Assembly: GCA_020073705.1 (NCBI GenBank)
Contig: JAIQES010000040.1
Coordinates: forward strand, 1 to 41,596
Length of the DNA stretch: 41,596 nucleotides
Reading direction: 5' to 3'
From: Terriglobia bacterium
GTDB lineage: Bacteria > Acidobacteriota > Terriglobia > Acidiferrales > UBA7541
A program made the translations under genes and the position numbers. Shown piece after piece: positions 28,469-34,737 of this stretch; positions within the stretch are counted from its first letter, which is position 1, and every line of letters begins with the position of its first letter. A model generated the notes under the pieces. It had not been told where the DNA came from, searched no databases, and saw nothing but the letters and a program-made list of their open reading frames with translations.

Positions 28469-29077
28469 TTACCAAGCACCTGGGCCGGGCAAGGAGCGCG
28501 TGTGGTTGAACGTGTATTCGCCGAGCAGACGCTCACCGCCTGCTTCATCGAAGGTGACCAGACGCGCGATTATTTTGCTCGTAGGCATGGCCTTCGCGAA
28601 TGTGATCGACTCCTGGTAGGCAACGTTGCTTGCCCCGGACTGAACGGGAATGTCCGGCAGCCGGAGCTGTTCAACGCCAAGCTCATCACAGATGCAGAGA
28701 TCGACTCGTTTTGCCCCGCTCAAGTTTGCGGCTAGGCGCCCGATGAGAATGTCATCTTCGGCTGTCACAGTGCACTGGACGCCGCCTCCCGCCGGAGGAG
28801 CGTATTCACGGATACGCAAGCCTTCCTCTGCGGCACGTTTAAGAAATGCGTCGCTCACAACCATTCGCAAGGAGCCTTCACGCGCCAAGTTGCGGACTCC
28901 TTCGGCAAGAGCAATCACTTCGCGGAGCCGCTCCCCGCATTGGTCGCAGTTGAATAGGTGCTCTTCGATGGCTTCCTCTTCGGGTTTCGCCAGCGCGGCG
29001 GTCCAATAATCGGCGAGGACTGCCGCGTCAATGGGAGTCGAGCAGATCATTGGGTCACCGTCGTTTCTGATCCTCAT
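28469..29077 (-). CDS. zinc-finger anti-sigma-like protein
   Basis: 202 residues if started at ATG 29077, which overlaps the stop of the upstream sigma gene in an ATGA arrangement and implies coupling; ATG 29050 is an alternative. The N-terminal third has the zf-HC2 type motif His-x3-Cys-x2-Cys (EEHLFNCDQCGERL), characteristic of anti-sigma factors that hold ECF sigma factors. No transmembrane helix is seen, so it should be cytosolic. The C-terminal domain (about 95-202) is beta-rich and not recognised. Pairing with the ECF sigma gene makes the anti-sigma role likely; the signal is unknown. Confidence 0.78.
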   Translation of the reverse strand: MRIRNDGDPMICSTPIDAAVLADYWTAALAKPEEEAIEEHLFNCDQCGERLREVIALAEGVRNLAREGSLRMVVSDAFLKRAAEEGLRIREYAPPAGGGVQCTVTAEDDILIGRLAANLSGAKRVDLCICDELGVEQLRLPDIPVQSGASNVAYQESITFAKAMPTSKIIARLVTFDEAGGERLLGEYTFNHTRSLPGPGAW

Positions 29078-29619
29078 ACTGCAACACCCATGCACTCGCG
29101 CAGCTGGTGGATTGCCCGATGGCGAATCACCCGTATATTGGCTTCAGAAACACCCAGAAAACTCGCGACATCCGTGCCGGTCTGCTCGTCGTAAAAAGTC
29201 ATAACGATTACCGTGCGTTCGCGCTCTTTCAGATTCTGCACACAGCGTGTGAGCCGGTCATGGTCGAGGCGTGGTATCGTCGGCTGCACTGGCGTCAGTA
29301 GATCTGCCCCAAACTTTTTGACCAGGTGTTCTTTTCTTTGAGCGCCACGACGCAGGTCGAGTACCGTCATCCGGCACGTTCCCAGCACGAAGGATGCCAG
29401 CTTCTCTGGTTCACGCAGCCGGCCCGCCCGGAGAGCTTCGAGCGTCGTGATCAGAACTTGCTGCGTAAGGTCCTCCGCGGCGTGTTCGTCTCTCAAGTGG
29501 CGTAAACCATAGAGCCGAATACGCGGGGCCATCCGGCGGAACAACTCAGCTTCGGCTTCGCGGTCGTTTCCGGAACCGATTTGCCGCACTAACTCAGCAT
29601 CGCTCAGCTCAATGTCCAT
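29074..29619 (-). CDS. ECF-type RNA polymerase sigma factor
   Basis: 181 residues from ATG 29619 (GAGG 7 bp upstream; a GTG at 29625 is in frame). Region 2 (about 12-85) has ELFRRMAPRIRLYGLRHLRDEHAAEDLTQQVL, and region 4 (about 115-175) has the helix-turn-helix TFYDEQTGTDVASFLGVSEANIRVIRHRAIHQL. The spacing is that of ECF sigmas lacking region 3. The anti-sigma-like gene follows with a 4-bp overlap. A perfect 9+9 inverted repeat at 29633-29663 lies immediately upstream and is shared with the divergent dinB. Probable target promoters are the duplicated leaders at 29638 and 30326. Confidence 0.92.
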   Translation of the reverse strand: MDIELSDAELVRQIGSGNDREAEAELFRRMAPRIRLYGLRHLRDEHAAEDLTQQVLITTLEALRAGRLREPEKLASFVLGTCRMTVLDLRRGAQRKEHLVKKFGADLLTPVQPTIPRLDHDRLTRCVQNLKERERTVIVMTFYDEQTGTDVASFLGVSEANIRVIRHRAIHQLRECMGVAV

Positions 29620-29632
29620 AATCACACCTCTT

Positions 29633-29663
29633 ATGTGTAACGAAGAGGCTGCTCGTTACACAT
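29633..29663. promoter_or_regulatory. inverted repeat between sigma factor and dinB
   Basis: ATGTGTAAC (29633-29641) and GTTACACAT (29655-29663) form a perfect 9-bp inverted repeat with a 13-bp spacer, starting 14 bp upstream of the sigma start. The spacer and right arm recur at 30330-30351, where only the inner TGTAAC/GTTACA part of the left arm is kept. It could be an operator or paired sigma-recognition elements. Confidence 0.6.
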
Positions 29664-29722
29664 CCTGGTATCAAGAGCGGACAATTGTACACAAGGCGGT
29701 CCGCTCACGGACAAGAAGAACG
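29638..29722 (+). repeat. 85-bp duplicated leader, copy 1 (before dinB)
   Basis: Matches 30326-30410 at 74 of 85 positions by hand alignment, without gaps. It includes the GAGGCTGCTCGTTACACATCC block and a downstream GAGCGGAC/GTCCGCTC hairpin (29675-29706, loop 16). Copy 1 ends 1 bp before an ATG (29724), but the better-supported dinB start is 29751. Confidence 0.8.
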
Positions 29723-29750
29723 AATGTTTATCAAAACAAAGGAGCATTTC

Positions 29751-30248
29751 ATGGATCCCAAAGAAGCCAAGACTGTCGCTGAGTTCCTCGTAGCCGATTT
29801 CACGAACGAAATGCAGACGACCCTGCGCGTCATCCAGGCGGTTCCCAACAGCCATCTCGACTACCGGCCGGACTCGAAGTCCAAGACCGGTCTAGGGCTT
29901 GTCCGTCACATCACTCTTGAAGACGAATGGCTGCTGAACTGTATCGCGAACGGCGCATTCACGCCTCCGCCCGACGATTCTGACGCCTGCGGCATTATGA
30001 ACCCTGCCGACGCTGTCGCCCGTTACAAAGAAAAAGTTCCAGCTGCCCTTGACCGCGTACGCGCCATGTCAGGCGAGAAACTAGCCAGTATCATTGATAT
30101 GTTCGGCATGATCAAAGCGCCTGGGGTCAACTTTCTTGCGATTGCGACCAAGCATTCGGTCCACCACCGCGGCCAGCTCAGCACCTACCTGCGCCCGATG
30201 GGCGGTAAGGTTCCGGGGATTTACGGACCTTCCGCCGACACTCAGTAG
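29751..30248 (+). CDS. DinB-like four-helix protein
   Basis: 165 residues from ATG 29751, with AAAGGAG 7 bp upstream; ATG 29724 just after the repeat is in frame but has a poor ribosome site. The four-helix DinB/YfiT-like bundle shows its three metal-ligand histidines: LVRHITLEDEW near residue 50, then ATKHSVHHRGQL near 135-142. DinB-fold proteins bind a metal and many are thiol-dependent transferases (bacillithiol or mycothiol enzymes); most are uncharacterised. It is transcribed from the leader shared with the ECF sigma gene and is followed by a second copy of that leader and the MBL gene. Confidence 0.85.
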   Translation: MDPKEAKTVAEFLVADFTNEMQTTLRVIQAVPNSHLDYRPDSKSKTGLGLVRHITLEDEWLLNCIANGAFTPPPDDSDACGIMNPADAVARYKEKVPAALDRVRAMSGEKLASIIDMFGMIKAPGVNFLAIATKHSVHHRGQLSTYLRPMGGKVPGIYGPSADTQ

Positions 30249-30325
30249 CAGTGATACCGAACCGACTGAAGCGCGGATCGGCAGGGAGTAACGCAAACAG
30301 GTCGTCCAGAATTGCCATTTATCTG

Positions 30326-30410
30326 TAACGGGGAGGCTGCTCGTTACACATCCAAGTATCAAACGCGGACAATGGTCCACAAGGCGGCCCGCTCACAGAC
30401 AAGGAGAACG
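30326..30410 (+). repeat. 85-bp duplicated leader, copy 2 (before MBL gene)
   Basis: The second copy keeps CTGTAAC-N13-GTTAC, the CGGACAAT and ACAAGGCGG blocks and the ribosome-site end AAGGAGAACG. It stops 3 bp before the ATG at 30414, so here the repeat supplies the ribosome-binding site. It fills most of the gap between dinB and the MBL gene. Confidence 0.8.
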
Positions 30411-30413
30411 CAA

Positions 30414-31178
30414 ATGATTGCAAATAAAGAAACAGGCACACGTGTTGACGAGGTCGCGGCTGGAATCTATCGCATCTGCACGCCGCTGGACGTGATCCCT
30501 GGGGGATTCACCGTCAATTCATATCTGATTGCCGACGACGAACCCCTGTTGTTCCACACTGGATACCGGAAGATATTCCCGTTCACCCTGGAAGCCATCA
30601 GGAAGGTTGTGCCGGTCGAGAAGCTGTGCTGGATCGGTGGATCGCACTTTGAAGGCGACGAATTTGGCGCGCTGAACGACTTCTTGACAGCCGCGCCTGA
30701 AGCGACGCCGTTTGGCAGCGAAATCGGCGTACTGACATCCCTCAATGACTTTGCCTCTCGGCCCGCTCGCGGGTTGATAGATGGCGAGGAGTTTTCCATC
30801 GGTAGCCGCCGGATGAAGTGGTTCTACACGCCGCACGTTCCGCACGGCTGGGATTGCGGCATTCTGTTCGATTTGTCCACCAAGACGTTGCTCTGCGGGG
30901 ATCTGTTCACGCAACCGGGCGCGAACATGCCGCCCGTGACCGAATCGGAGGTGCTCACCGCAAGTGAAGCAATGCGCGCGATGATGGACTATTACGCGCA
31001 CGCGACGGGTACAGCAGCCATATTGGAGCGTTTAGCGGCTTTCCGTCCTTCGATGCTCGCCTGTCAACACGGGAGCGCTTATCGTGGTGACGGAGCCGCG
31101 CTGCTCCGCAAACTGTCCGCCACAATCGATAGGGAGAATAGCAAGGTGTCCGCAGCACCTTCTGCGATGACCGCGTAG
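30414..31178 (+). CDS. flavodiiron-type metallo-beta-lactamase-fold protein
   Basis: 254 residues from ATG 30414 (AAGGAG in the duplicated leader); the longer frame to 30312 reads through that leader. It has the MBL fold with a di-iron ligand pattern like flavodiiron proteins: His78-x-Glu80-x-Asp82 (SHFEGDE), His141 or His144 (TPHVPHGW), Asp163 (CGDLF) and His219 (CQHGS). True hydrolytic MBLs have HxHxDH instead. No flavodoxin domain follows, so it is a stand-alone oxygen-binding (ODP-like) protein that may sense O2 or NO or work with a separate flavoprotein. Expression probably follows the ECF sigma through the repeated leader. The 374-bp gap after it (31179-31552) holds a 7-bp inverted repeat (TGCAGTC/GACTGCA, 31434-31455) but no gene I can support. 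Confidence 0.85.
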   Translation: MIANKETGTRVDEVAAGIYRICTPLDVIPGGFTVNSYLIADDEPLLFHTGYRKIFPFTLEAIRKVVPVEKLCWIGGSHFEGDEFGALNDFLTAAPEATPFGSEIGVLTSLNDFASRPARGLIDGEEFSIGSRRMKWFYTPHVPHGWDCGILFDLSTKTLLCGDLFTQPGANMPPVTESEVLTASEAMRAMMDYYAHATGTAAILERLAAFRPSMLACQHGSAYRGDGAALLRKLSATIDRENSKVSAAPSAMTA

Positions 31179-31552: not shown

Positions 31553-32395
31553 ATGAACGCCGACACAGCCAAGACCTTAGCCAATCCAAACAAAGCGTTG
31601 TGGGAGAAAGGCGACTTTACCGAGATTGCCGCCTTCATGCGTCAATCTGGAGAAGCGATCGTTAAGTCTCTCGGGATAACGCCGCCGCTGCGGGTTTTGG
31701 ACCTCGGCTGCGGAGATGGCACTACGGCGATTCCTCTGGCCCTTTTGGGGGCTGAAGTTATTGGAATCGACATTGCCAGGAACCTCGTTGACGCTGGGAA
31801 TAAAAGAGCTGCGGAGCTGGGTCTCAAGCGACTGAAATTTCAAGAGGGAGATGCGTGCAACCTGCAAGGGGTCAGCGACCATTCGTTTGATTTGACCCTC
31901 TCCGTATTCGGCGCGATGTTCGCACCCAAGCCCTTTGACGTGGCGAAGGAGATGGTCCGGGTCACAAAACCAGGTGGTCGCATTGTGATGGGCAACTGGA
32001 TCCCAAACGATACAACTTCATTCGTGTCGCAACTGCTGAAAATAAGCTCGTCGTTTATGCCTCCGCCTCCAGAAGGCTTCGTCAGCCCAATGACCTGGGG
32101 CGTGGATACTCACATCATCGAACGTTTTGGTCAGGCCGGAGTGCCCAAGGAAAAGATATCCATGGTCAAGGACACCTACTCCTTTATATCGACCGACAAA
32201 AGCCCGGCACGTTTCATCGAGCTATTGGAACAATTCTATGGGCCGACAATGAACGCTTACGAAGCGGCTCAAAAGAGCGGAAAAGTGGAGGAACTCCACA
32301 GCCAGCTTTTGGAACTGGCGAAAGCACAAAACAAGAGCACGGACGGCAGCACTTCAATACCTGCTACCTTCTTGCGAGTGACTGTTTCTCTTTGA
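31553..32395 (+). CDS. class I SAM-dependent methyltransferase
   Basis: 280 residues from ATG 31553 with AAAAGGAG upstream. The Rossmann methyltransferase core has motif I VLDLGCGDGTTAIPLA (about residues 48-63), the acidic motif II residue in VIGIDIA, the DACNLQGV segment for the adenine site and the KPGGRIVMGNW strand. No target-specific domain is apparent, so the substrate (small molecule or quinone-like) is unknown. The C-terminal ~110 residues are helical. It is followed 23 bp later by a DinB-like gene on the same strand, a likely two-gene unit. Confidence 0.85.
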   Translation: MNADTAKTLANPNKALWEKGDFTEIAAFMRQSGEAIVKSLGITPPLRVLDLGCGDGTTAIPLALLGAEVIGIDIARNLVDAGNKRAAELGLKRLKFQEGDACNLQGVSDHSFDLTLSVFGAMFAPKPFDVAKEMVRVTKPGGRIVMGNWIPNDTTSFVSQLLKISSSFMPPPPEGFVSPMTWGVDTHIIERFGQAGVPKEKISMVKDTYSFISTDKSPARFIELLEQFYGPTMNAYEAAQKSGKVEELHSQLLELAKAQNKSTDGSTSIPATFLRVTVSL

Positions 32396-32418
32396 GGACG
32401 GAAGAAAGAGGAGCAACA

Positions 32419-32901
32419 ATGAACAACCGTTCTGAAGCTCTCGCCGCCCGTCTCGAGGCCGGCGCAAAAGCACTTGCCGCATTTGCCGCCGCACTTTCCG
32501 AGACGGAATGGCAGACGCGCGTTCCCAGGGACGGACGGAAGATCGGCGTGGTGGTGCATCACGTTGCCAGCGTGTACCCGATCGAGATCTACCTCGCGCA
32601 GTTGCTGGCTTCTGGCAAGCCAGTCACCGGGGTGGATTGGGACGCCGTCCACGCGATGAACCGGGACCACGCGAAAGAGAATGACGCCGTTACAAAGGAA
32701 GCCACGCTCGCCTTGCTGGCAAACAACAGTGCTGTGGCGGCAGCGGCAATACGTGCTCTCAGCGATGTAGAACTGGATCGCGCCGCGCCCGTGTCGCTCA
32801 ATAGCGATGCTCCGCTTACCTGCCAGTTCATGCTTGAGGATCATGCGGTGCGCCACAGTTACCACCACCTCGCTCGGATCCGAGCCGCGCTCGCCCATTA
32901 G
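32419..32901 (+). CDS. DinB-like protein, second copy type
   Basis: 160 residues from ATG 32419 (AGAGGAG upstream). Four-helix DinB fold with candidate metal histidines at VVHHVAS (about 45) and HAVRHSYHHLARI (about 145-153). It shows little similarity to the dinB product at 29751, so it is a paralogous family member and not a recent duplicate. It ends an island operon with the SAM methyltransferase. A function in thiol-linked detoxification is typical for parts of the family but not shown here. Confidence 0.8.
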   Translation: MNNRSEALAARLEAGAKALAAFAAALSETEWQTRVPRDGRKIGVVVHHVASVYPIEIYLAQLLASGKPVTGVDWDAVHAMNRDHAKENDAVTKEATLALLANNSAVAAAAIRALSDVELDRAAPVSLNSDAPLTCQFMLEDHAVRHSYHHLARIRAALAH

Positions 32902-34378: not shown

Positions 34379-34737
34379 TGGTGGAGGCGGGGGGAGTTGA
34401 ACCCCCGTCCGAAAAGCGCTACGGCCCGAAGCCTACATGCTTAGCTCAATTCCGTTTGTTTCGCCAGTCGCGCTCAGAATGAGCAAGAAACGCGACCGGC
34501 TAGCCCGATTGGTTCTCACCGTCTCGCCCCGGACCGAGACTTGACGGCCAGCCTACAGTGTGACGCCTCTTGCCGGGCCCGTAGGCGAAGCCCGGGGAGA
34601 CGTAGCTACGCTAGTTTAAGCTAGGCAGCCAAAGCCAACGGTTGGTTGGCAGTTCTAGTTTTCCACCCGATTGCGGGCAGGTGGCGCCCGGCATGCCTTC
34701 GAGTCGCGACAGCTTCCGTCGAAACCGTGTCGCCCCC
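34379..34737 (-). ncRNA. ssrA: transfer-messenger RNA
   Basis: 359-nt tmRNA rescuing stalled ribosomes. The 5' end (34737) begins GGGGGCGACACGG and the 3' end reads CCCCCCGCCTCCACCA with CCA encoded (34379). The ends pair into the tRNA-Ala-like acceptor stem, with a T-arm around GGGTTCAACTCCC. The tag reading frame runs GCC AAC CAA CCG TTG GCT TTG GCT GCC TAG, giving ANQPLALAA, so the full tag is (A)ANQPLALAA, ending in the LAA degron read by ClpXP. A TAGAAT -10 box on the minus strand (34746-34751) sits 8 nt before the 5' end. The gene is divergent from nadA. Its 3' end is echoed by three repeats to the left, indicating use as an integration site. Confidence 0.96.

Follow-up and report, generated by a model that had tools for sequence, protein, structure and literature searches.

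In the 41,596-nucleotide stretch of Terriglobia DNA analysed here (the window), a repeat stands in front of two neighbouring metal-enzyme-like genes, and this repeat is likely to be the duplicated promoter of the adjacent ECF sigma factor gene. Its conserved core, a 31-bp palindrome, would then consist of two fully overlapping, divergent ECF promoters, and expression of the sigma factor would probably be switched on jointly with that of these two genes. A wider reading, to which we give a little less than even weight, is that this palindromic two-way promoter may be a portable unit that equips captured metal-enzyme genes, within a cassette whose sigma gene, anti-sigma gene and palindrome stay constant and whose cargo is exchanged. 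Just as tentatively, the cassette may extend through the Acidobacteriota and into two betaproteobacterial records, where the palindrome takes a degenerate form. If these proposals hold, a single 31-bp element acts as an alternative-sigma promoter both ways and can be duplicated so that a local sigma switch gains new genes, and the gain and exchange of targets by one-target ECF modules becomes testable.

The repeat and its palindromic core

The first-pass annotation had described an 85-bp leader in two copies, and the segments 29638-29722 and 30326-30410 do agree at 74 of 85 positions without gaps; the runner-up ungapped 85-mer in the whole window, on both strands, reaches 38/85. A direct-repeat search extended the match to 29631-29746 and 30319-30434 (93/116 identical). 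The annotation had also called for a search for more copies in the genome. When this was done with the repeat as query, copy 2 was recovered at E = 5e-26 and there was no third copy; besides the two copies and their opposite-strand palindrome matches, the best match in the rest of the whole genome had E = 0.24. The surroundings are as first described, with a divergent ECF gene adjoining copy 1 (minus strand, ATG at 29619) and unrelated genes behind the copies, one of the DinB superfamily (PF05163) and one encoding an ODP-family metallo-beta-lactamase-fold (MBL) protein (PF19583).

What had to be revised is the conserved unit. The repeat itself stands, but the unit that is kept is not the 85-bp leader; it is a 31-bp palindrome, ATGTGTAACG-N11-CGTTACACAT, at the start of each copy. 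The palindrome of copy 1 (29633-29663), with the ECF gene on one side and the DinB-family gene on the other, has perfect 10-bp arms, and that of copy 2 (30321-30351) has one arm mismatch. Each strand reads TGTAAC-N17-CACAT, which is the same as TGTAACG-N16-CACAT, and each arm (ATGTGTAACG) would serve one direction as its -35 and, through the opposite strand, the other direction as its -10. In copy 1, the putative rightward (cargo) promoter would have its -35, TGTAAC, at 29636-29641 and its -10, CACAT, at 29659-29663 on the plus strand; the putative leftward (ECF) promoter would have TGTAAC at 29655-29660 and CACAT at 29633-29637 on the minus strand. In copy 2, the rightward TGTAAC (30324-30329) and CACAT (30347-30351) are intact, and the sole arm mismatch sits in the leftward -10 (CAGAT). 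As the -10 of an ECF promoter CACAT is unusual (ECF41 has CGTC), which counts against the promoter reading. CGTTA was considered as a -10 and rejected: it lies 12 nt from TGTAAC, seemingly less than the spacing of an ECF promoter, and by eye it is not kept in two of the related loci discussed below (L073 and L075).

Behind the palindromes lie the leader of the DinB-family gene (29664-29750, plus strand) and that of the MBL gene (30352-30413, plus strand), the latter a duplicate of 29664-29722 with a few bases added; over those 59 positions, 50 are common to both leaders. The window genome has no exact palindrome beyond the two copies. Two one-mismatch relatives of the palindrome, G000:C10:27834-27858 and G000:C34:83724-83748, are identical in sequence and opposite in orientation; one of them is 13 bases from a contig end, and they are perhaps a repeat common to two contigs.

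The sigma and anti-sigma genes

The gene to the left of copy 1 (29074-29619, minus strand) encodes an ECF sigma factor of 181 aa with regions 2 and 4. Sigma70_r2 and Sigma70_r4 score above their Pfam cut-offs and TIGR02937 above its own, which places the protein in the ECF group (sigma-70 group 4). Region 4 extends to residue 175 out of 181, and there is no C-terminal extension of ~100 aa.

We call the 193-aa product of the next gene (28469-29050, minus strand) a soluble zinc-type anti-sigma factor, with inhibition of the sigma factor predicted from adjacency. A homologue follows the ECF gene in 31 of 31 homologous loci. The protein has an Hx3Cx2C motif and, by prediction, four helices and a C-terminal beta-sandwich. 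The motif residues H31, C35 and C38 are invariant in the 31 aligned rows (L070 left out), and they lie over predicted helices 2 and 3 (residues 22-34 and 36-57), as in class I (ASDI/ZAS) factors; the Pfam zf-HC2 model falls below its cut-off. Searches of the PDB with the full-length protein gave nothing meaningful by sequence and mostly beta-sandwiches by fold. As these searches were uninformative, the N-terminus was folded separately. With the first 79 residues alone, the best 8 of 13 Foldseek matches were ChrR, RskA and RslA, at a best E of only 0.1. By structural superposition the best Z was 7.6, with an rmsd of 8.9 over 72 residues, middling by the tool's scale, and ChrR ranked first. The C-terminal half is a predicted beta-sandwich with weak Ig-like matches.

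Distribution of the palindrome among relatives

Homologous loci were taken as those in which the ECF protein has at least 49% identity, which gave 31 loci; the other 16 of 47 (23-31% identity, L080-L095) were set aside. The palindrome precedes the ECF gene in 27 of these 31 loci (26 exact, and L059 with one mismatch), with constant arms and a variable centre. In the loci of Zeimonas and Lautropia the palindrome before the ECF gene carries two mismatches, and L073 and L075 are without one near it.

The 399 genomes of the class that were also searched share some organisms with the 31 loci, and the two sets are not independent. The core TGTAACG-N11/12-CGTTACA occurs in 25 of these genomes and the ECF protein (E <=1e-40) in 28, with both in 22, an overlap for which a naive hypergeometric test, ignoring kinship, gives P = 1e-27. 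In the six ECF genomes that lack an exact palindrome, it is present with one or two mismatches. The palindrome was found at 28 places, 23 of them within ~100 bases of an ECF match and on its start side, and two more are second copies at the same locus (in the window genome and in G169). The reversed control pattern was found at 10 places in 9 of the 399 genomes.

The remaining three places have no adjacent ECF gene. In G295 (L116, on C23), the palindrome accompanies an MBL gene of the same family, with no ECF or anti-sigma gene within 3 kb and no close ECF genome-wide. In G364 (L119, on C353), it accompanies a DinB-family gene and a 47-residue anti-sigma remnant; the ECF gene is gone, and the sigma gene has apparently been lost from the module. 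The palindrome of G151 has no family member within 3 kb and looks like a chance match.

In a search of 15 ECF genomes allowing at most one mismatch, 13 had exact copies, and every one of these lay at the ECF locus; away from it there were 7 one-mismatch places, against 9 for the reversed control. Since exact copies are found at the ECF locus only, the regulon appears to be local. For the one-way form TGTAACG-N16-CACAT, again with at most one mismatch, matches outnumbered those of the reversed control in G042, G167, G163 and G098 but in none of the other 11 of the 15 genomes, and the motif is thus without confirmation from independent targets. One exact one-way site lies away from ECF loci (G200:C84). 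The 17 scattered one-mismatch one-way matches of G042 belong to a dispersed repeat, TGTAGCGCCGCC...GGCGGCACAT, which contains an inverted repeat and to the eye looks REP-like.

The proposal in the first-pass annotation that both genes are under one sigma factor gains good comparative support from this distribution, that is, from the company the palindrome keeps with the ECF gene in 22 genomes and the confinement of its exact copies to the ECF locus, and also from the direction-specific decay described below. For this ECF/anti-sigma family, TGTAACG-N11-CGTTACA beside the sigma gene would serve as a sequence rule for finding targets.

Alternative readings

The main rival to a two-way promoter, which we consider improbable, is that the palindrome serves as operator for a dimeric transcription factor encoded at an unlinked site, by which sigma gene and cargo are regulated jointly, with the sigma promoters elsewhere. 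Dimer operators typically show perfect two-fold symmetry, as in the 10-bp arms here, and palindromes persist without an ECF gene beside the MBL gene of G295 and the DinB-family gene of G364. The second palindromes of L049 and L050 are also still symmetric; in them the leftward promoter sequence is still perfect although no gene lies there for it to serve, which counts against the promoter reading. On the other side, 22 of the 25 palindrome genomes also carry the ECF gene, and among proteins recurring in at least 4 of the 31 loci no regulator family was recognised beyond the ECF, anti-sigma and cargo families, with clusters assessed on their position and leading sequence (several of them are antisense shadows). 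The way in which the palindrome decays also speaks against an operator. In five rows, from three lineages, in which the sigma-direction -35 is altered, the sigma-direction -10, at the opposite end of the palindrome, has two to three changes and the cargo -10, which shares an arm with that -35, at most one. Decay follows promoter direction better than half-site (Spearman 0.60 vs 0.18 over 42 rows with kinship ignored and L073 and L075 left out, and 0.51 vs 0.16 over 37 rows with near-duplicates dropped), in a test that was devised after the sites had been seen and that rests on the three lineages. In L111, the cargo -35 is altered too, and the sigma-direction -35 is TGTCAC, as in no other row. 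In the sister loci L073 and L075, where a cupin gene runs in the same direction as the ECF gene, a one-way form, TGTAAC-N18-CACAT, precedes the cupin-ECF operon, and this too stands against an operator. In G295, with its MBL gene and no adjacent ECF gene, the MBL-direction -35 is exact and its -10 has one change, against three in the opposite -10. The decay pattern, the one-way form and this asymmetry favour a two-way promoter over a two-fold operator.

Two further readings concern the cargo side. Copy 2 could be a passive by-product of local duplication, with the DinB-family and MBL genes co-transcribed from copy 1, an arrangement for which L052, L053, L054, L056 and L058 offer a precedent, having both genes behind a single palindrome with none in between. 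We think this quite unlikely, given that the rightward elements of copy 2 are intact and its lone arm mismatch lies in the leftward -10, and that L050 and L049 keep a perfect palindrome before the second cargo gene, in L050 with the rest of the second leader largely lost. More unlikely still is that the common leader forms an RNA hairpin that controls how both cargo mRNAs are translated or terminated; RNA-level control had been offered as an option in the first-pass annotation and found weak support at best. Copy 1 folds better than its shuffles (z -3.2), and in an alignment that took in 14 of 32 leaders a hairpin at positions 48-55/75-82 pairs in 68% of cells, compared with 31-49% in six slid registers, with five pairs that change on both sides. 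Yet the fold of copy 2 is unremarkable (z -1.1), the observed hairpin values are attained by 19 to 47 of 500 shuffles on five measures, and the consensus fold of the 14 leaders contains no leader hairpin. The second leader of L050 lacks the hairpin and keeps the palindrome, no Rfam family matches at the repeat, and the palindrome would be upstream of the proposed starts and hence outside transcripts from them.

Proposed mode of action and comparison with known systems

Under the two-way promoter reading, a trigger would cause the soluble zinc-type anti-sigma factor to release the sigma factor; a redox or thiol signal is a guess. Sigma-bound RNA polymerase would bind the palindrome in either orientation. 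A leftward start would give the sigma/anti-sigma mRNA, and so autoregulation, and a rightward start would give the cargo mRNA. Mutual exclusion at the one site would tie sigma autoregulation to output. The assignment of the -35 and -10 elements, transcription in two directions, the signal and the order of events are all things that we infer from sequence.

The logic of the module resembles that of ECF41. As described in PMC3426412, ECF41 also pairs one ECF factor with an adjacent, exchangeable enzyme gene as its sole detected target, its promoters have the same spacing between -35 and -10, and in many divergent pairs each of the two genes has one. The ECF41 promoter is TGTCACA-n16-CGTC, the sigma factor carries a fused C-terminal regulatory extension of ~100 aa, and there is no anti-sigma gene (PMC3426412). 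All three features differ here, where the elements are TGTAAC and CACAT in the window and in almost every relative, the extension is absent and a separate zinc-type anti-sigma gene is present; moreover, one palindrome would serve both directions. The N-terminus of the anti-sigma factor, for its part, may resemble ChrR. In SigE-ChrR of Rhodobacter sphaeroides and other ECF/class I pairs, as presented in PMC7406223, the anti-sigma factor is likewise soluble, with Hx3Cx2C over helices 2-3. The C-terminal part of ChrR has a cupin fold, whereas an Ig-like beta-sandwich is predicted here, and the promoter and cargo also differ.

The bidirectional bacterial promoters of PMC12825309 are likewise pseudo-symmetric sites at which RNA polymerase can take two mutually exclusive orientations; the symmetry is present in the sequence here. 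Theirs is a symmetry of the common -10, whereas here it would span both elements, the -35 and the -10, recognised by an alternative sigma factor, and here coding genes lie on both sides. In hrpL-hrpJ of Pseudomonas syringae (PMC5263251), an ECF gene is also divergent from its own target promoter, and the activity of that promoter feeds back on the sigma gene. Unlike the present case, the hrpL promoter is sigma-54 dependent, which makes two kinds of promoter, and the account in PMC5263251 describes no common palindrome in the parts that deal with this region. In the open-access literature we found no description of the module or of palindromic or bidirectional ECF promoters.

The cargo genes and their proposed capture

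The first cargo gene (29751-30248, plus strand) had been named dinB in the first-pass annotation. It does belong to the DinB/YfiT-type superfamily, but it does not encode DNA polymerase IV: only the DinB and DinB_2 models match, and there are no Y-family polymerase domains. The second (30414-31178, plus strand), first described as a flavodiiron-type MBL gene, encodes an MBL-fold protein of 254 aa that scores 38.4 bits with PF19583 against a cut-off of 27.2. It aligns with the MBL part of rubredoxin:oxygen oxidoreductase (1e5d), and its H, E, D, H, D and H align with positions that we take to be the iron ligands of that enzyme. The relationship with flavodiiron proteins is therefore retained, without the flavodoxin domain, which does not appear in the Pfam result for the 254 aa.

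Among the 31 loci, the gene paired with the ECF gene is an MBL gene of one of three ODP-type subfamilies in 23, a cupin gene in six (two of them co-directional with the ECF gene), a SnoaL gene in one and a long ORF in one (L076). The MBL frame of L061 is short. DinB-family genes occur alongside the MBL gene in 10 loci.

These cargo swaps, together with an apparent remnant of the MBL gene start in the DinB leader, support the view of the first-pass annotation that promoter and leader were captured. In L050, L049 and the window, the DinB leader can be aligned with the ribosome-binding site of the MBL gene and with the codons that open it. When scored against the window MBL start, 0/500 composition shuffles for L050, 1/500 for L049 and 0/500 for the window reached the observed score, the window figure also covering the part of the leader that is duplicated in any case. 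With two other MBL starts as reference, 0 to 41 of 500 shuffles did so. The extra stretch 29723-29746 alone matches the first MBL codons at 13/24 positions ungapped, and better with gaps. The same MBL ribosome-binding site and start are found in L052 and L053, with no palindrome before the MBL gene. The suggested MBL-start remnant in the DinB leader in turn suggests duplication and capture. The simplest history would have the order palindrome-leader-MBL first and the DinB-family gene entering later. As that gene came between the sigma gene and the MBL gene, the palindrome, leader and MBL start would have been duplicated, so that each cargo gene received its own copy. In the sigma/anti-sigma tree (L077 left out), 9 of 30 inner branches have good support, and the order of the cargo changes cannot be read from it.

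In L051 (JAIQGB010000017.1), the cargo gene starts 109 nt from the start of the ECF match and encodes a SnoaL-like protein, the N-terminal residues of which resemble the N-terminus of the MBL protein usual at this place, as if a new gene had joined behind an MBL start.

Downstream of the MBL gene in the window are two further genes (31553-32901, plus strand), one for a methyltransferase and the other a second DinB gene, of DinB_2 type; direct-repeat and palindrome searches placed no copy of the palindrome before them, and both were therefore left out of the module. The window also contains a tmRNA gene at 34379-34737 on the minus strand (RF00023, 179.6 bits).
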